Part shown: in pieces, positions 26,201 through 60,788 of the stretch
Layout of the letters: each line of letters opens with the position of its first letter
Position numbering within the stretch: the first letter of the stretch is position 1
Virus record (IMG/VR): IMGVR_UViG_3300020442_000017
Coordinates: 28,305 to 92,304 of that record
Source: a virus
Strand: one strand, 5' to 3'
DNA: 64,000 nt
Notes under the pieces: generated by a model
What the model was told of the DNA's origin: nothing
The model's database searches: none
The model's input: only the letters and a program-made list of their open reading frames with translations
Position numbers and translations under genes: made by a program

Positions 26201-29200
26201 CGTGTACTACAACAGGGAGATATTGTACAATTCTCTGATACCGATGAAAATATTGTTCGCTGTATTGTTCAGTATCCAACAAAACCATCTGGTGTATTGA
26301 AGTCAAGAATTTATTTTGACAGAGCACTTCCACAAAATGTCAGTAATACTAGTGTAGTTAGAATTCGTCCTAACATTAAAAACTTTAACCAAGGAACTTT
26401 ACTTTATAAGACAGGAACTAAACAAGTTTCTTCTATTGTAGCAACTAGTGAAGATTCTAAAATTACACATTATGTAAGAAGAGATTTTGTAAGCACTGGT
26501 AGTTCTAGTGGTGGTAGTATTACATTTACCGCTCAACTTCCTTTTGGTACACAGAGATTTGTCTCCTTTAGTGAAAGTAATTTCCTAGTTACTATTCTAG
26601 AAAAAGGTAGTGCAACATCTATTGAAAAGGGAGATATCATTTACTTGACATCAGATCAAGTTAGTATTTCTGCATCTACTGATGCTGCGAGTGGATTGAC
26701 ATCTGGTAGTGTTGTTTTAAGTCTCCCACAGACATTCTTTGGTGGAGATGCATCTAATTACACAGAGTTCCCTAAACTAAAATTAAGTGCCACACTTGAA
26801 GTATCAAAAGCAAAACCAAGACTTAAGACAGCAAAACTAAACACTAGAATTGTTATTGAATCTCCTGGCGATAGGGTTATTCCTTTCCGTGGAAAAAATT
26901 ATGACACACAGAGTGTTGAGACATTTACATATGCTGATGCATTTAAGTTGAGATATGTATATGAAGGAACCACACAAGATCCACCAACTGTAGATGCAGG
27001 TGGTAATCTCGTCAGTGGAACTGATGTAACCAATAGATATACTTTTGACGATGGTCAAAGAGACACTGTATATGATGTTTCTAGAATTATCTTAAAGCCA
27101 GGCTTTGATGCACCTGTTGGTCAATTACTAATCGCATTTGATTATTTTGACCACACAACTGGTGATTTCTGTACTGTAGATTCTTATCTACATGAAGCAG
27201 GTGTTGGTGCTGATGAAATTCCATCATATAATTCACCTGCACTTGGTAAAGTATCTTTAGGTGATGTCTTAGACTTTAGACCTAAAGTAGATAATGATGC
27301 TATTATTTCTGGTTATCAAGATAGTTCTCTACTAGGTTCAGTTAATACCAGATCATTTGCTGGTGGTGGTGGTATTGTTTCCAGCACCCCTGCACCTGAT
27401 TCTAACCTAGAGTTTACATTCTCATTCTCTCAGACTCAATATCTCAGCAGAATTGATGGTCTTTTCTTAGATAAGAAAGGTAAGTTTTATGTTAAGGAAG
27501 GCAATTCTTCATTAAATCCAACTAGACCTGAATCTATTGAAGATTCAATTGCATTGTACTACATGTACATTCCTGCATTTACACAGAGTAGTAAAGATGT
27601 AAGAATTGTACCAGTAGATCATAAACGCTATACAATGCGTGATATTGGTAAACTAGAGAAGAGAATTGAAAGATTAGAGTACTATACAACACTTAGTATT
27701 CTAGAGCAGCAAGCCTTGAATATGCAAGTTATTGATGGCAATGGTAATAATAGATTCAAGAGTGGTTTCATTGTAGACAATTATGAGACACACAAGATTG
27801 GTAATCTAAAATCCATTGACTATAAGTGCTCTGTTGATACTCAACAGTCTGTAATGAGACCTCAGTCAAAAGAAGATTCTTTCATGTTGGAAGAGATCAA
27901 TACAAGAAATGATCAAAGAACTTCTGCTGGTTATGTTAGGAATGGTGATCGTGTTACATTACCATTTACTGAATTGGAAATGGTTAAGAATGAGTTTGCT
28001 ACCAAGACAATTAATCCCAACCCATTTGTAGTTCTACAATATGCTGGTGATTCATTTATTGGACCCAATGTAGATTCTTGGTATGATACTAGTGTTGAAC
28101 CACTAGTTACAGATAATAACACCAATCTATATTCTATCTTTATTGCAAAAGATAATATTAAAGATGCATTTTCAAGTCTTTACAATTCATATAAAGTAAA
28201 TTGGTTGGGTGCAAATAGATCATTCTTTAACATTGAGTCTTTTGCGGATACAAATTCTGATCTATCAGGATCAAATGTTACTAGTGCTTCTGTTTCTAGT
28301 TCTTCTAACGTAAGTCCTGACAACAATGAGATTGGTAAGGGTATTTCAACTAAGGGTGTTGGTTCTAATGTTGTTGCAACATCACTATCATTCTTTGCTA
28401 GAAGTATTCCTCTTAAATTTGTAATCAATCGTTTAAAACCAAATACAACTGTATATCCTTTCATGGAAGGTCAGGATATCTCTCGTTGGGTCAATTCTGA
28501 TTCTAAGTATACAGGTATTGCTGGCAATTCTTTGTCATCTTTCAATACTCCTATTAAAACTGATGCAAATGGTAATGCTAGTGGAATTATTCTAGTTCCT
28601 GCTGGTCAACCACCAAGAGAAAACAGTGTTTGGGGTGGTAGTGCTGAGAATTTAGATTACGATACAGATTCAGTTGAAGTTAGATTTACAACTGGTGTAA
28701 AAACTATTAGATTTACTTCTAGTAAAACTGATGCTCCCAAAGAGGATGTAGAGACATACGCAGAAGTTAAATTCTATGCAACTGGTCTTCTTCCTGAGAA
28801 TCCTGCATCTATCGTTTCCACTGCACCTGCTTTCTTCAAAGCAAATGAGGGAACACAGACAACTGATAGCAATACAGAAAATCCAATCAAACCAAATCCA
28901 CTTGCTCAGACATTTACTGTTGATGGATTTGATGGTGGTATTTTTGCAACTAGTGTTGATCTATTCTTCTCAACTAAGAGTGAAAATATTCCAATTAGAG
29001 TATACCTAACAGATATTCAAAATGGTAAACCAGGTAAAAATATTCTACCTGGCACACAGAAAGTTCTTAATCCAGACACCTATCTAAGAGTTCTTGCCAG
29101 TGACACGCTTGAAGTAACTAAGGGAGAAAAAGTTACTGGTCAATCATCAAATGCTTCTGGTCCTATTTCAAAAGTATTTGATAAGAATAATATTGAACTA

Positions 29201-31696: not shown

Positions 31697-31905
31697 TGAA
31701 ACATATAAAAGTGAAGAATGAAAACCACCTGTATCGTGATAGTGATACAGGTGCAATCATAAATACCGATAGGTCTTCGTTTGAGAAGTATAAGAGATCT
31801 AAATTAAAGTTTCAAAGTATGGAACAAGAATTAGATCATCTTAAAAGTGAGATAAGCGAGATTAAATCACTATTAAAAGAGATAGTAAAGTCCAATGGTA
31901 CTTAG
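31696..31905 (+). CDS. Small coiled-coil protein (69 aa)
   Basis: Coupled to the giant upstream gene (TAATG). The N-terminus (NENHLYRDSDTGAIINTDRS) contains a beta-turn motif. The C-terminus is a heptad coiled coil (FQSMEQELDHLKSEISEIKS, then LLKEIV). It lies between DUF4815 and two fibre genes, so a small fibre adaptor is plausible. It overlaps the next start by 11 bases. Confidence 0.65.
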   Translation: MKHIKVKNENHLYRDSDTGAIINTDRSSFEKYKRSKLKFQSMEQELDHLKSEISEIKSLLKEIVKSNGT

Positions 31906-33496
31906 AAATGTAGCCAAATCATTCTCATTTGAGGAACAGAGGCAAGAAATTAATTTACTTGCTGTAGATGTTGATAGCATCGCAACTAATATTGCTTCCA
32001 TGACCTTGGTTAATGAGAGTAATCCTAAGTTGGGTGCAAATCTAGATCTCAATAATAATAGTATCACAGGTACTGGTGATATTAATCATAATGGACAGTT
32101 AACTACTGGTAGCATCTTAACTTCTGCATCTCTCAATAATAAAGGATCCATTCAGTTTGGAACTGCGGATGCTTATTCTCTTGGGCACATGCCTAACAAT
32201 AGCAACTTTGCATTTTCACAACTACATGGCGGTAGTTACTTATTCTATACTAATGCTAGTACGATTCCACTTCAGATTGATCCAACATTAGTTGATGTCA
32301 ATGTAAACCTAGATGTTACTGGAACCATAACTGCATCTGGAACCATAACTGCATTGGGTGGTAATTCTACTTACTGGAATAATGCACATAGTTGGGGAGA
32401 TCATTCTTTAGCAGGATATTTAACATCAGAAACTCAATCTGATTGGAATGAATCTGATACTAGCAATCCAGCACATATTTTAAATAAACCAAATCTCTTT
32501 GATGGTACTTGGGGATCACTTTCTGGTAAACCAACATTTGCAACTGTTGCTACTAGTGGAGATTATAACGATTTATCCAATACACCTACACAAGCTAGTC
32601 AAGTTCAATCTAATTGGGGAGAAACAGATTCTAATAACGTTGCATTTATTAAGAACAAACCTACTATCCCAACTATCCCATCAAATGTTAGTGCCTTTAA
32701 TAATGATGTAGGATACAAAACCACAGATAACAACACAACATATACTTTAGATGCTGGAACGCATGGTGCTTCTGATGCAAAGTTAACGTTGCTTGGAAGT
32801 ACTTCTACTATTGATAATGTTATCTTAACTGCTGGAACTGGTATTGCTTTTAGCTCAATTGGCAGTGGTGGATTTACAATTTCAACTTCTTTAAGTATTG
32901 GAAATCTAACCGACGTTAATGTTTCTGGTGTCACCACAGGACAAGTATTGAAGTGGAGTGGAACTCAATGGGCTCCTGCTGATGACACTCAAGGATCTGG
33001 GGGAGGTGGTTTCTCTGGAGATTATAACGATCTAACTAACAAACCTACACTTTATACTAATAGTGATGTTAATGCTCATTTAAACACATCTACTGCTGGT
33101 ACAGGACAAATTTTAAGTTGGAATGGTAGTGATTATGACTGGGTAAATGATCAGCAAGGTGGTAGTGGTAGTGGTTCTAATTTAGAAAGTTTAAACGATG
33201 TTGCTTGGAGTGGTTTAAATCCCAATCCTCAAAATGGTCAAGTATTACAACACAATGGATCTAACTGGACAAATAACACATTAGATTTACCAGATAAGAT
33301 TGAAGATTTAAGTGATGTATCTAATGCAGCACCGCAGGATGGTCATATTTTGAGATGGGATGCTGGAAATAATGTTTGGTTACCAGGATCTGATGATATT
33401 GATTCTCTCTACACAAAGTTAAACGCAATAGGAAATGATGCCAGCATTACTACTGTTGCTGGGCTTAAGTCTGCTCTTGCAGCATTGAGTCGTTAA
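31895..33496 (+). CDS. Tail fibre-like protein (533 aa)
   Basis: The first 20 residues (VLRNVAKSFSFEEQRQEINL) match the start of the next gene (VLRNVPKTFSFEEQRIEINE), so both probably attach to the same socket. The body contains fibre modules: LNNNSITGTGDINHNGQL, SWGDHSLAGYLTS, SGDYNDLSNTPTQ, FSGDYNDLTNKPT and repeated GQVLKW/GQILSW beta-units. No lectin or collar domain is seen at its C-terminus. It is likely a proximal or medium fibre part. The DNA of the SGDYNDL unit is nearly identical to the copies in the next gene. Confidence 0.75.
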   Translation: MVLRNVAKSFSFEEQRQEINLLAVDVDSIATNIASMTLVNESNPKLGANLDLNNNSITGTGDINHNGQLTTGSILTSASLNNKGSIQFGTADAYSLGHMPNNSNFAFSQLHGGSYLFYTNASTIPLQIDPTLVDVNVNLDVTGTITASGTITALGGNSTYWNNAHSWGDHSLAGYLTSETQSDWNESDTSNPAHILNKPNLFDGTWGSLSGKPTFATVATSGDYNDLSNTPTQASQVQSNWGETDSNNVAFIKNKPTIPTIPSNVSAFNNDVGYKTTDNNTTYTLDAGTHGASDAKLTLLGSTSTIDNVILTAGTGIAFSSIGSGGFTISTSLSIGNLTDVNVSGVTTGQVLKWSGTQWAPADDTQGSGGGGFSGDYNDLTNKPTLYTNSDVNAHLNTSTAGTGQILSWNGSDYDWVNDQQGGSGSGSNLESLNDVAWSGLNPNPQNGQVLQHNGSNWTNNTLDLPDKIEDLSDVSNAAPQDGHILRWDAGNNVWLPGSDDIDSLYTKLNAIGNDASITTVAGLKSALAALSR

Positions 33497-33530: not shown

Positions 33531-36500
33531 ATGGCAGTACTCAGAAATGTACCAAAGACGTTTTCTTTTGAAGAACAACGCATAGAAATTAATGAGATTG
33601 CACAAGATCTCTATTCACTTAGTAGTGGTAATTTAACACAGTTTTCTGTTACTGTTAGTGCTGCCAGTGGCAATGGTAATTTAACCTATGATAATACTAC
33701 TGGGGTATTTGATTACACGCCACCAAATATTTCATCTACTTTTTCTGGAGATTATAACGATCTAAGTAACAAACCTACACTATTCTCTGGAGATTATAAC
33801 GATCTAAGTAATAAACCTACACTATTCTCTGGATCCTATAATGATTTAAGTAACAAACCTACAATATTCTCTGGATCCTATAATGATTTAAGTAACAAAC
33901 CTACTATACCAATAACTTTAAATGATCTTAGTGATGTAGATGCAACAACTGGAGTAGCAAACGGTAAGATACTTAAGTATAATGGAAGTGGTTGGGAAGT
34001 AGCAGATGATCAATCAGGTGGTGGAGGATCTTCTTATACTAATTCTAATGTAGATACTCATCTGAATGTTAGTGGTGCTTCTTCAGGTCAAATCCTCAGT
34101 TGGAATGGATCTGACTATGTTTGGGTAGCAGATCAGACTGGTGGAGGTGGTAGTAGCAACGTATCAGCTATTAATGATCTAAGCGATGTTGTTATTAGCA
34201 ATAGTCCCACTGCTGGTCATGTAATTAAATGGGATCAAACTACTAGTAAGTGGACCAACCAACCAGATATGACTGGGCAAGGTGGATCTGATTATCAAAT
34301 TTATAATTTTACTGTAGATGTATCAAACTCATCATATTTTACGATAAGTGGTCATGATAGAGTGGGTGGTGTTAGTGGTAACAATCCTACTATCACTATG
34401 AATGAAGGTGATAGAATCAGATTTGCTGTATACAATAGTGGAACAAATCACACATTTGAGATTAGAGTAAGTGCTGGTGGTGCCGAAGTTAGCAATTCAG
34501 CTCCAACTAAAACTACTCATGGTGGGGGAGATTATATTGAATGGGCACCACAAGTTGCTAGTGGAGGATCTGCTGGATCATATGTTTATGAATGTGATAA
34601 CCACAGCAGTATGGTTGGGGTAATTACAGTTCGTCCTAGAAATACTATTAATGAATTTGATACTCTGCAAACTGTAACTGCGAGAGGTAGTACTACAACT
34701 AATGGAATAACACTTAGTACAAGTAATCTTATTCTAGATTCTGCTAATGATCAACGTGTTCAACATAATGTTAGTGGAGTAGAAAAATCTAAGATCATTT
34801 GGAGAAGCACTGGTGCTGTAGATTTCTATGCTTCAAATGGCATGAGTTTCTTTGCCACTAGTAATACATCTCCTAACAATAGAAGATTACAACTCCTTAC
34901 TGGTGGTGGTGTAATACTTGAATGGCAGAATAATACACGACTTGAAACTACTTCTACTGGTGTAACTATTAGTGGTGTTCTAACTGCTGGTGGTCTTACC
35001 TATCCAAACTCCAACGGAACTAGCGGCCAGGTCTTGTCTAGTGATGGCACAGGAAATGTAGCATGGTCTACGGTGTCTATTCCTGCTGCACAAGTTAATT
35101 CTGACTGGAGTGCTACATCAGGTCTTGCTGAAATTCTTAACAAACCATACCTTCCTACATTTTCAACTACCAATCCCTCTGATGGTCAGATTCTAACATG
35201 GAATGCAACCAGCAGTGAATGGCAACCTGATAATGTAAGTTCTGGTTCAGTCACTTCAATTAATGATATTGGTGATGTCAATGTTCCCAATCCTACAGAT
35301 GGACATGTTTTAAAGTGGAACGCTTCTACTAGTAAGTGGATTGCATCTGCTGATTTAACTGCAACTGGTGGTGCTGGTATTGCATTAGCAGATCTTTCTG
35401 TAACTACTAACTCAGCAGGTACAGCAGCATTAACATACAGTAATACAACTGGTGTATTCAGTTACACACCACCAGACCTTAGTGGATACTTAACATCACT
35501 TGGAGACGCTGCTGGTGTTACTACTGCTAAAATTTCTAATTGGGATGATGCGTACAGTTGGGGTGATCATAGTTTATCTGGATATGCAACACAAACCTTT
35601 GTCAACACTGCACTAACCAATTTAAACAATTGGGATACTGCATATGGTTGGGGTGATCATAGTGCTGCTGGATATCTAACATCATACACCGAAAATGATA
35701 CACTTTCTTCAGTAGTTGGTCGTGGAAATACAGCAACTGGTCCTATTACTATTGGTGGCAATGGATCTAGCGGTGGTGTAACTCTTAAGGATGGTAAGAT
35801 TGAAGTAAGAACAGGAACTGGAAATGTAGCAGCAATTGATCTTTATTGTGAGGTTAATAATGTACATAAGATTAGTATAAAAGCACCACCACATAGTAAC
35901 TTTAGTGGTAATATTGATTTTGTTTTACCTCCAAACGCAGGTACATCAGGAAAAGTTTTAAGCACTGACGGAACTGGAGTTACAAGTTGGGTAGACAGAT
36001 CAACGTTCTCTGGATCTTATAATGATCTAACTAATAAACCAACAATTCCATCTACTTTAGATCAATTAACTGATGTTAGTGTTGGAAGTGTTTCTGAAGG
36101 TGATTACTTAAAATATACTTCTTCTGGATGGACTCATGGAACTATTACTGAGTTTTCTGGTAACTATAATGATCTTTCAAATAAACCAACAATTCCAACC
36201 AATATTGGAGATCTATCAGATGTAGATTTTAGTGGTAGCACTACTGTTGGTTATGTTTTAAAATGGGATGGATCAGAGTGGTCACCTGCTCAGGATACAA
36301 ATTATCCAACTGGTGGTATTGCAGGATTAACTGATGTTGATTTTGATGGAGGTTCACCTAGTAATGATCAAGTATTAGTATATGATTCATCTACAAATAA
36401 ATGGAAGAATGAATCTCCAAGTTCTGGTGTACCATCTGGAACTATTGTTATGTACAATAGTGGTTCTGCCCCTTCTGGATGGGCTGTGTGCGATGGTACT

Positions 36501-37142
36501 AATGGAACGCCAGATTTAAGGGGTAGATTTGTCCTTGGTTCTGGTGGAAGTTATAGTGGAACTGGTGGTAGTGCTGATGCGGTAGTAGTATCACACTCAC
36601 ATAATAATAATGCTAGTTCTTCAACTCACAATGGTCACTCGCATGGTCAGGGAAATCTATCCACGTCTAATGAAGGAGGTCATTCACATAATGTGAATGC
36701 ATCTGGTGGTAGCAACACTGGAAATCAAAGTAATAATCATTACCATACTATCTCAGAAAACATAACAATCGGTGGTGGAAGTCACTCTCACAATATATCA
36801 ACTGGTGATGGAACAGATGATCAAGGTAATTCTGGTCCTAAAGATACTTCCGATTGGGAACCTGGATATAATAGGAGTACTAGTAATGTTGGCCATAATC
36901 ACAATTTCAACTTAACTGTGCCAACGCAGGGTATTAGTCAAAACCATACACATGCATTTAATGTTACTGTAAATGGTAATACAGATAATCAAGGTTCTCA
37001 TTCTCACAATGTAACTGGTAGTACTGGAAGTGATGGTAGTCATGACCACTCAATTAATGTTACTATTGGAAGTCAAGGAGAGAGTGGTACAGGTAAGAAT
37101 CTACCCCCATATTATGTACTTACGTATATCATGAAGTTGTGA
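33531..37142 (+). CDS. Tail fibre with embedded cupredoxin-like domain and collar/HxH tip (1203 aa)
   Basis: Order from the N-terminus: an attachment segment shared with the previous gene; four tandem 14-residue FSG(D/S)YNDLSNKPT(L/I) units (about 71-126); repeated GQILSWNGSDYVW beta-units; a cupredoxin-like domain (about 254-370) with H307, C355, H358 and M361; fibre modules with SWGDHSLSGYATQ; two further YNDL units; a phage tail collar domain (GTIVMYNSGSAPSGWAVCDG, then TPDLRGRFVLGSG, about 968-1005); and a His-rich C-terminus with nine HxH motifs resembling iron-threaded fibre tips of T4 gp37. Probably the receptor-binding or short tail fibre. Confidence 0.82.
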   Translation: MAVLRNVPKTFSFEEQRIEINEIAQDLYSLSSGNLTQFSVTVSAASGNGNLTYDNTTGVFDYTPPNISSTFSGDYNDLSNKPTLFSGDYNDLSNKPTLFSGSYNDLSNKPTIFSGSYNDLSNKPTIPITLNDLSDVDATTGVANGKILKYNGSGWEVADDQSGGGGSSYTNSNVDTHLNVSGASSGQILSWNGSDYVWVADQTGGGGSSNVSAINDLSDVVISNSPTAGHVIKWDQTTSKWTNQPDMTGQGGSDYQIYNFTVDVSNSSYFTISGHDRVGGVSGNNPTITMNEGDRIRFAVYNSGTNHTFEIRVSAGGAEVSNSAPTKTTHGGGDYIEWAPQVASGGSAGSYVYECDNHSSMVGVITVRPRNTINEFDTLQTVTARGSTTTNGITLSTSNLILDSANDQRVQHNVSGVEKSKIIWRSTGAVDFYASNGMSFFATSNTSPNNRRLQLLTGGGVILEWQNNTRLETTSTGVTISGVLTAGGLTYPNSNGTSGQVLSSDGTGNVAWSTVSIPAAQVNSDWSATSGLAEILNKPYLPTFSTTNPSDGQILTWNATSSEWQPDNVSSGSVTSINDIGDVNVPNPTDGHVLKWNASTSKWIASADLTATGGAGIALADLSVTTNSAGTAALTYSNTTGVFSYTPPDLSGYLTSLGDAAGVTTAKISNWDDAYSWGDHSLSGYATQTFVNTALTNLNNWDTAYGWGDHSAAGYLTSYTENDTLSSVVGRGNTATGPITIGGNGSSGGVTLKDGKIEVRTGTGNVAAIDLYCEVNNVHKISIKAPPHSNFSGNIDFVLPPNAGTSGKVLSTDGTGVTSWVDRSTFSGSYNDLTNKPTIPSTLDQLTDVSVGSVSEGDYLKYTSSGWTHGTITEFSGNYNDLSNKPTIPTNIGDLSDVDFSGSTTVGYVLKWDGSEWSPAQDTNYPTGGIAGLTDVDFDGGSPSNDQVLVYDSSTNKWKNESPSSGVPSGTIVMYNSGSAPSGWAVCDGTNGTPDLRGRFVLGSGGSYSGTGGSADAVVVSHSHNNNASSSTHNGHSHGQGNLSTSNEGGHSHNVNASGGSNTGNQSNNHYHTISENITIGGGSHSHNISTGDGTDDQGNSGPKDTSDWEPGYNRSTSNVGHNHNFNLTVPTQGISQNHTHAFNVTVNGNTDNQGSHSHNVTGSTGSDGSHDHSINVTIGSQGESGTGKNLPPYYVLTYIMKL
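33741..33908 (+). repeat. Four tandem 42-bp repeats within the fibre gene
   Basis: Each 42-bp unit encodes FSG(D/S)YNDLSNKPT(L/I). The first two and last two copies form near-identical pairs. Related units occur at about 32560 and 33010 in the neighbouring gene and at about 36008 and 36157 in this gene. Confidence 0.85.
34290..34638 (+). other. Cupredoxin-like domain inside the fibre gene
   Basis: The segment of about 116 residues has a beta-sandwich pattern starting YNFTVDVSNSSYFTISGHD. It ends with YVYECDNHSSMVGVITV, the classic loop of blue copper proteins with Cys, His and Met ligands (C355-x2-H358-x2-M361, the spacing of amicyanin). The upstream His is H307 (TNHTFEIR), 48 residues before the Cys, close to the plastocyanin separation. 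It is in frame with the fibre on both sides. Confidence 0.8.
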
Positions 37143-52281: not shown

Positions 52282-53766
52282 ATGGGAAGAAGAATTACAA
52301 TCCAAGAAAGTGGTGGAGGCGGCGGCACAGGCAACGCACATAAGGAAGATCCGTTTGATCAACCTTGTTTTAGTGCCTATAACGGTAGCTATAACTACTC
52401 AACTGGTTGGTTCACATGGGACCACAACCTAAACGTTCATAACTGGATCATTGGTGATAACAATGGTTACTCCCAGTATCGTTCTGATAACTCATCTCAG
52501 AACACTGAATTCATTAACGAACAAGGTTCTGACAACTGGTTCAACACTTGGAGTGAACCAAGCAGTTCTACTGATCGTGTAAACCTACTTTGTTATTCTG
52601 GATATCTAGGTCACCAGAACTTCCTCAATGGTTCCTGCCGAGGCAGTGCCACTCCTTGGTTCGTTCATACAAATGGTTCTAGTTACCGTTCATACGGTTT
52701 CAGAGACGTTTGTACTCTTCCTGGTGAAACTCATCAAGACTACGCTGTGTTCGTTCAATGGGGCGGCACGATGCGTATGTGTCAAAGATCCTCTAGTGAA
52801 TACTGGATGGGTTATAACTATGGTAAACTTCCTACAATTGATGTTCCAGATGGTTGGTCTAACCAAATGTATGGTGCTGGTTCCTACAACAGAAAGACCA
52901 AGAAAATGGTCTTCATGGAAACCAACGACAGTTATACATATCAACCATGGTTGTGGGAGAATGTCCCCAACCTAAGAGCTGTTGCCAACAACGGTGGTAA
53001 CTTTGAATATGATCACGCTGATCAGTATAATGCTTACGGCACCAGCAGTCTTCAGGCTTACTTCAACCAGACTTCTAACAGAAAGACTGGTAGTTATCCC
53101 AATAGTGGTTACTATGACTACGCAAGTGGCAAACCAACTAACCAGACTACAGAAGATCAACGGAGATGTATTACTGTTCTCTGTGATAACGATAGAATCG
53201 TTATGTTCCAAATGATTCCTAGCTACGGTGCTTGGGCATGTAGATGGAATTCTCCAACTGTAGATGGTAATGGTAATTCTCAAAACATTTACACTTGGAA
53301 CGGTACTACATCTTATGGTATTGACCAAGGTGAAAGATATGGTGCTAGATGGACAATGACCAGTGATGGTAGATACATCGCAATGTACTGCCCTTACTAC
53401 TATTATGGTTCTGGTATCTTTATTGCTATTACCAGAGTATCTGATGGTAAGACATTACGTAGTTCTTGGACAACTTCAAGTGAATCTGTAATTCCTGTAC
53501 CATTTGGTAAGTCTAACTTCCTGATGGTATCCAGTAGAAACACTGACGGCGGTCAAGGTATTAGATTTACCCAGTTCAACTGTGACTTCAGATTCGGTAC
53601 TAACAACGACGTTGGGGATCCAGATATGACTGGAGCAATTGACGCTTCTAGTTATCAGTTTGATAGTACTTATTACACTACATCTTATCCAGGTATTATT
53701 CCATCAATCTATAATACTTCTCTGTTTAACACAGAACTTGATACTGATTATACAAACGCAGGATAA
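52282..53766 (+). CDS. Tyr/Asn/Ser-rich virion structural protein (494 aa)
   Basis: Preceded by a good AAGGAATAGGA Shine-Dalgarno stretch. Composition is unusual: many Tyr, Trp, Asn, Ser and Gly, with repeated hydrophilic beta-hairpins (AYNGSYNYSTGWFTWDHNLN, MSSRNTDGGQ-like turns and YNAYGTSSLQAYFNQ). After a glycine-rich start (ESGGGGGTGNAHKED), it looks like one large multi-bladed beta domain. Probably a fibre tip or adhesin distinct from the repeat fibres. No family named. Confidence 0.65.
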   Translation: MGRRITIQESGGGGGTGNAHKEDPFDQPCFSAYNGSYNYSTGWFTWDHNLNVHNWIIGDNNGYSQYRSDNSSQNTEFINEQGSDNWFNTWSEPSSSTDRVNLLCYSGYLGHQNFLNGSCRGSATPWFVHTNGSSYRSYGFRDVCTLPGETHQDYAVFVQWGGTMRMCQRSSSEYWMGYNYGKLPTIDVPDGWSNQMYGAGSYNRKTKKMVFMETNDSYTYQPWLWENVPNLRAVANNGGNFEYDHADQYNAYGTSSLQAYFNQTSNRKTGSYPNSGYYDYASGKPTNQTTEDQRRCITVLCDNDRIVMFQMIPSYGAWACRWNSPTVDGNGNSQNIYTWNGTTSYGIDQGERYGARWTMTSDGRYIAMYCPYYYYGSGIFIAITRVSDGKTLRSSWTTSSESVIPVPFGKSNFLMVSSRNTDGGQGIRFTQFNCDFRFGTNNDVGDPDMTGAIDASSYQFDSTYYTTSYPGIIPSIYNTSLFNTELDTDYTNAG

Positions 53767-60422: not shown

Positions 60423-60788
60423 ATGAAGTTACTACCATTACGCAAGTTTATTATCCGTACAGTTATTCTTAGTCTAGCATTTTTATCAATTGCACTTTTA
60501 CCAGGTCTGGCATATGCAGTTGACATTGAAATGGGTTCAGGTGGCAATCTAGTATTCAATCCATCTGAAGTAACAATCTCTGCTGGTGAGACAGTCAAAT
60601 TTGTTAATAATGATCTACCTCCTCACAATGTAGTTTTTATTAATGGTCATGAGGAATTATCACGCCCCGACCTTAACTTTATGAAAGGAGATACTGTAGA
60701 AATTGCTTTTGATGATCCTGGTGAATATGAATTTCAATGTGAACCCCATGCTGGTGCTGGTATGAAGGGAGTCATTCATGTTGAATGA
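60423..60788 (+). CDS. petE: Plastocyanin
   Basis: Plastocyanin carries electrons from cytochrome f to photosystem I in the thylakoid lumen. The copper ligands H68 (LPPHNVVF), C106, H109 and M114 (CEPHAGAGMKG) are all present. A signal peptide occupies residues 1-32 (basic start, hydrophobic run, AYA before VDIEM). The mature part is about 89 residues, and the His-to-Cys separation is 38, against about 47 in typical plastocyanins, so a loop is shortened. It overlaps the following ORF by 11 bases. With PTOX it would keep electrons flowing through the host chain. Confidence 0.92.
   Translation: MKLLPLRKFIIRTVILSLAFLSIALLPGLAYAVDIEMGSGGNLVFNPSEVTISAGETVKFVNNDLPPHNVVFINGHEELSRPDLNFMKGDTVEIAFDDPGEYEFQCEPHAGAGMKGVIHVE

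Follow-up and report, generated by a model that had tools for sequence, protein, structure and literature searches.

A cupredoxin domain with a complete set of type-1 copper ligands is embedded in a tail fibre protein of a T4-like cyanomyophage, and relatives of this domain recur in the baseplates and tails of marine cyanophages. On balance, we think that the type-1 copper cupredoxin is an exchangeable module of the adsorption apparatus of these viruses, that it is probably loaded with copper, and that the copper would serve in stabilisation or docking. The fold, the ligands, selection on the ligands, the location on tail proteins and the modularity are supported by sequence or prediction, while the presence of copper in the virion is what we infer.

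Results

A type-1 ligand set within a tail fibre

The window analysed here is a stretch of 64,000 nucleotides, positions 28,305 to 92,304 of the 92,304 bp IMG/VR record IMGVR_UViG_3300020442_000017. Genes for gp6-, gp7- and gp8-like baseplate proteins, neck and sheath mark it as coming from a T4-like cyanomyophage, as do those for PTOX, plastocyanin and a 6-phosphogluconate-dehydrogenase-like protein. No PHROG match was obtained for an ORF of 494 aa within the structural region (52282-53766). The features that concern us, in window coordinates, are as follows.

33531..37142, + strand: tail fibre gene bearing the domain (ORF of 1203 aa; phrog_9729 tail fibre, E 1e-71; weak collar domain match)
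33531..33725, + strand: N-terminal anchor region of the fibre, residues 1-65 (phmmer against retrieved loci; common to fibres mostly without a cupredoxin)
34278..34640, + strand: cupredoxin domain, fibre residues 250-370 (AlphaFold2, Foldseek, family alignment)
34449..34451, + strand: codon of ligand H307 (sequence; column invariant in 43/43 non-redundant ligand-bearing copies)
34593..34595, + strand: codon of ligand C355 (sequence; invariant in 43/43 such copies)
34602..34604, + strand: codon of ligand H358 (sequence; invariant in 43/43 such copies)
34611..34613, + strand: codon of axial ligand M361 (Met in 42/43 non-redundant copies, Gln in 1/43)
36594..37049, + strand: C-terminal stretch of the fibre, residues 1022-1173, with nine HxH motifs (motif count)
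60423..60788, + strand: plastocyanin (PetE) gene of the phage (PHROG PetE, E 2e-42; PF00127, E 1.2e-22)

The first-pass annotation had placed a blue-copper domain in frame between the repeats of a structural tail protein, with all four type-1 ligands and C-x2-H-x2-M spacing, and on each of these points it proved accurate. The carrier is the phrog_9729 fibre ORF; repeats (YNDLSNKPT, LSDV, GQILSW) precede the cupredoxin, which is followed by a linker and then, from about residue 550, by repeats again. H307, C355, H358 and M361 lie in a single open frame in the type-1 copper order of His, Cys, His and axial Met, the loop spacing is exact, and C355 follows H307 at a distance of 48 residues. The fibre holds a single instance of the motif H-x(41-66)-C-x2-H-x2-M, and 8 of 20,000 shuffles of the fibre contained it; this, together with the conservation of the ligands across the family described below, rules out a chance motif. 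The domain has no second Cys, and a disulphide role for C355 is unlikely given that the fibre sequence reaches its next Cys only at residue 773.

The HxH motifs of the C-terminal stretch (HSH, HYH, HNH, HTH and HDH) resemble those of the iron-binding T4 gp37. One fibre may thus combine two metal sites, one of iron type and one of copper type.

The domain is predicted to adopt a cupredoxin fold

Taken alone, the fibre domain matched Pfam Copper-bind (PF00127) with an E value of 0.0067 and 17.3 bits, short of the curated cut-off of 21.2. Its PHROG matches were phrog_27200 (E 2e-21) and the gp9 family phrog_677 (E 7.5e-12), to which it aligned at positions 306-409 of 412. A family alignment of 55 members (A3) was used for profile comparison, Pfam comparison and AlphaFold2. 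Against the PDB, the best matches of its profile, from E 1.5e-6, were cupredoxin-fold proteins, namely nitrite reductases, plastocyanins, rusticyanins, auracyanins and amicyanins, and 48 of the 55 members matched Copper-bind at E<=0.1.

A structure prediction had been proposed as a check, and the AlphaFold2 model does show a cupredoxin fold: nine strands were predicted with a pLDDT of 85.4 and a pTM of 0.81, the stretch 70-90 being of low confidence. Foldseek returned 187 PDB matches at E<=0.001 (best E 3.4e-6), and all 50 of the 50 matches listed were type-1 copper proteins, although TM-scores of the model to solved cupredoxins were modest, at about 0.5-0.55. Model and Foldseek matches agree on the Greek-key beta-sandwich that characterises the cupredoxin superfamily. 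A CUB or Ig-like domain, CUB having been Pfam's top weak match, was ruled out because the Foldseek matches listed were all cupredoxins. We are confident that the fibre segment is a cupredoxin fold with a full type-1 ligand set.

Cupredoxin sites take up zinc when the proteins are made in Escherichia coli, and the site could in principle hold zinc, some other metal or a mixture of metals. We regard this as improbable, because His-Cys-His-Met/Gln is the type-1 copper set and the relatives of known structure are copper proteins.

The ligands are kept or lost together

Across 43 non-redundant copies (ligand-bearing, <60% mutual identity), no other column among about 120 is as conserved as those of the four ligands. 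The two His and the Cys never vary, and Met stands in 98% of the copies, the sole exchange being of the axial Met for Gln; the C-x2-H-x2-M spacing is constant, and the His-Cys distance ranges from 42 to 65. Entry to this set required H, C and H, with Met, Gln or Leu allowed at the fourth place, and the unconditioned tally of viral copies is the fairer measure. Among 467 unique viral copies, 390 have all four ligands, 68 have none and nine, several of them truncated, fall in between; the collection relied in part on resemblance to ligand-bearing queries, a bias that raises the share with ligands and affects the two-peaked shape less. A search for the same ligand set in other cyanophage fibres had also been suggested, and its outcome is that homologues largely retain the ligands. 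Two outcomes named in advance as refuting, a model lacking the cupredoxin fold and homologues lacking the ligands, did not come about.

Most ligand-free copies come from the wedge protein whose gene is adjacent to that of gp9, where they form the second domain of a tandem pair. Their persistence there favours a metal-free alternative, in which the domain is a rigid beta-sandwich spacer, its ligand residues are kept for packing and the site is empty in the virion; assembly of virions in a copper-poor cytoplasm, as is generally known, fits this too. The presence of ligand-free paralogues in the same particles also counts against the copper-site view, since it means that the fold can serve without copper. 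Nevertheless, the ligands outrank all other columns in conservation and are lost together or kept together, as expected of a metal site, for which loss should be all-or-none, and the exchange of Met for Gln preserves a metal ligand, Gln being a known type-1 axial ligand, as in stellacyanin. We therefore hold an empty scaffold to be unlikely, and the pattern supports the view that the ligand set has been maintained by selection.

In the wedge proteins downstream of gp9 (loci L016-L021 and L026-L105), the first of the tandem cupredoxins has the ligands and the second has none. Axial-Gln copies (C-x2-H-x2-Q) occur in long structural proteins at loci L117, L119, L121, L133, L139, L140, L144, L151, L160, L161 and L077. 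The second domain encoded at L437:4353-6920 has a different ligand loop, CGIVSHAGM, that is, C-x4-H-x2-M.

Relatives in marine cyanophages

Searches of INPHARED with tblastn matched 41 records with the window domain, 316 with the C-terminal domain of S-WAM1 gp9 (all cyanophage or marine virus by name), 59 with the P-HM1 copy, 87 with the ACG-2014 copy and 217 with the copy in the baseplate wedge protein, counts that are redundant in that they include GenBank and RefSeq twins. By name the matches were to cyanophages or marine viruses throughout, save for DSL-LC01, a freshwater phage of Actinomycetia. By way of scale, the gp6-like protein of the window matched 2310 T4-like records, including 434 of Synechococcus phage or Cyanophage and 625 of Escherichia phage; the gp9-type query matched 289 records in the Synechococcus phage and Cyanophage name groups and zero enterobacterial phages. 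In 21 phage records picked from the matches, together with the window's own record, there were one to five matches each, plastocyanin genes counted. Used as a single-sequence query against viral contigs, the window domain gave no match, whereas its relatives as queries did find copies.

The proteins bearing relatives are gp9, the adjacent baseplate wedge protein, spikes and fibres. In the cyanopodoviruses P-SCSP2 and P-GSP1, the domain lies near the N-terminus of a tail-region protein. By this comparison, the cupredoxin domain is not a one-off: the tails and baseplates of marine cyanophages share it as a conserved module.

All ligands are kept at the P-SCSP2 and P-GSP1 loci (L386:3962-5275 and L387:3950-5950). 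The DSL-LC01 locus (L388:3146-4516) likewise encodes a domain with all ligands, beside collagen-like genes. Two MAG contigs labelled Euryarchaeota and Gammaproteobacteria (L265, L266) carry domain-bearing ORFs that resemble phage fibres, and are probably viral contigs binned into MAGs.

Position in the particle and modularity

The N-terminus of gp9, in an alignment of that family (A4), matches T4 gp10 (E 1.4e-8) and T4 gp9 (E 2.1e-6), which places the C-terminal cupredoxin on a baseplate protein; in the full-length gp9 model the N-terminal part is poor (mean pLDDT 62.7) and only the C-terminal domain is good. As background, 41 proteins were detected by virion proteomics of phage S-SM1 (PMC3037559).

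The window fibre matches phrog_677 only across the cupredoxin and has no T4 gp9/gp10-like N-terminal baseplate part. Fibres that share its own N-terminal anchor are mostly without a cupredoxin; a single one of about eight carries it (L406), some of these fibres ending at contig edges. Conversely, a fibre with a different N-terminus (L437) carries a close orthologue of the window domain, with some 70% identity judged from the alignment, which keeps the ligands and an unusual NHTF and is followed by the same linker as in the window fibre. The rarity of the domain among anchor-sharing fibres, and the occurrence of its orthologue on a different N-terminus, indicate that the domain moves as a module. 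Directly upstream of the fibre gene lies another (31895-33496) with a related N-terminal anchor and no cupredoxin; the two are possibly alternative fibres.

This distribution bears on a copper-dependent contact with the host, in which a copper face made of a surface His and a hydrophobic patch would dock to a partner on the host surface or in the periplasm, or in which the domain would respond to copper or redox state at the cell surface and so trigger adsorption. The domain does sit on proteins of the baseplate-fibre junction and on fibres, and the T4-like phage records that have it all bear names of cyanophages or marine viruses. No partner is known, however, and the positions of the domain are diverse, N-terminal regions of podovirus fibres next to the tail among them, which is unlike a single receptor-contact function. 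We give this reading some weight but consider it unlikely.

Relation to plastocyanin and to bacterial cupredoxins

The first-pass annotation had remarked that the genome also encodes a plastocyanin with different loop spacing, and this is so: the petE product has C-x2-H-x4-M where the fibre domain has C-x2-H-x2-M, and the two are 26% identical over 92 columns. The low identity, the different loop and the closer similarity of the fibre domain to other phage and bacterial domains rule out that it was copied from the phage's own plastocyanin.

Electron transfer, for instance to or from a host electron carrier, is the usual job of type-1 copper proteins, and the phage has genes for plastocyanin and PTOX. 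Plastocyanin is nevertheless a separate and divergent gene, the fibre domain holds one copper site without an evident electron path, and a Pfam search of the fibre recognised no second redox centre. That negative result makes electron transfer, in our view, the least likely explanation and a very remote one.

In GTDB species genomes, the family was found at 47 loci, mainly in marine Bacteroidetes, in OCS116, PS1 and Rhodobiaceae alphaproteobacteria and in Myxococcales; a first scan of GTDB genome contigs gave no match and a second did. All ligands are present in 58 of 62 bacterial copies. Several of the carriers are short proteins consisting of a signal-peptide-like or lipobox-like start and a single domain. 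We conclude from these sequence comparisons that the fibre domain is related to bacterial surface cupredoxins and not to the phage's own plastocyanin; the most economical reading would be that secreted cupredoxin modules of bacteria and viruses form a common pool. The bacterial carriers of about 130-150 aa, mostly from marine Bacteroidetes (L282, L285, L288, L301, L304 and L309), are little-studied surface copper proteins.

Discussion

If the proposed copper module operates as we envisage, each copy of the domain would bind one copper ion. Virions are assembled in a host cytoplasm that holds little free copper; loading would then take place at or after lysis. The bound copper could lock a small, disulphide-free beta-sandwich, and the locked domain would either stiffen the fibre or provide a surface at which baseplate, fibre and host dock. 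Given trimeric tail proteins, this would amount to tens of copper ions per particle. The evidence found here favours neither sensing nor electron transfer over a structural or docking role, and we consider stabilisation or docking likelier than either.

Were copper bound, a baseplate component widespread among marine cyanophages would count as a copper protein, a large unannotated domain of gp9-type proteins would be explained, infectivity would be tied to the copper chemistry of seawater, and a simple assay of metal content or blue colour would be possible. Rough arithmetic, taking ~10^9 particles per litre and ~50 sites each, gives a pool near 0.1 picomolar, which is trivial against total dissolved copper. 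The usually quoted levels of free copper ion in the surface ocean are comparable with this pool. The recurrence of the domain, its ligands kept, in tail and baseplate proteins of hundreds of related viruses suggests that copper is part of the infection machinery of many abundant ocean viruses. More speculatively, the virions of marine T4-like cyanophages could as a class be copper proteins, with a conserved type-1 site, located in fibres and where they join the baseplate, that is loaded after release and helps in attachment or triggering, which would make infection by major ocean viruses copper-dependent; we hold this stronger proposal only tentatively.

The cupredoxin superfamily has long been familiar, and database entries for the viral proteins exist under the labels gp9, tail fibre or hypothetical protein. 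What appears to be new is a self-contained copper-type site in virion proteins, a surprising location. In the literature searched, with subscription papers and preprints outside it, we found no paper that identifies a cupredoxin or a copper site within phage tails and no report of copper measured in a cyanophage virion. Iron in phage tails, on the other hand, is an established idea (PMC11705849).

With the plastocyanin/azurin family (PF00127 Copper-bind; PF13473 Cupredoxin_1), the fibre domain shares the fold, the four type-1 ligands and their order; it differs in sitting within a 1203-aa viral fibre, in its short C-x2-H-x2-M loop and in falling below the Pfam cut-off when taken alone. Amicyanin has the same C-x2-H-x2-M loop, and PDB profile matches to it range from E ~4e-5 to 0.01, but the phage domain is longer and stands in a structural context. 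Amicyanin is a free periplasmic electron carrier that serves methylamine dehydrogenase, and the tail-fibre context makes such a role very unlikely for the fibre domain. The single-domain cupredoxins that bacteria secrete, marine Bacteroidetes among them, belong to the same sequence family, yet they are short surface proteins or lipoproteins, unlike parts of a phage fibre.

Closer to hand, the product of the cyanophage plastocyanin gene petE (60423-60788; PMC3037559) is a cupredoxin of the same genome, yet it is an intracellular photosynthesis protein. Cyanophage gp9, the baseplate wedge tail fibre connector (phrog_677), ends in a copy of this domain that retains every ligand, whereas in the window fibre the cupredoxin is internal and the N-terminal anchor comes from another fibre group. 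A further parallel is iron in phage tail fibres, with the HxH motifs of T4 gp37 and the Ferrojan horse hypothesis (PMC11705849). There too a phage tail fibre has metal, as proposed here, but the metal is iron held by HxH motifs, whereas the window fibre has, besides its HxH motifs, a self-contained site of the type-1 copper kind.
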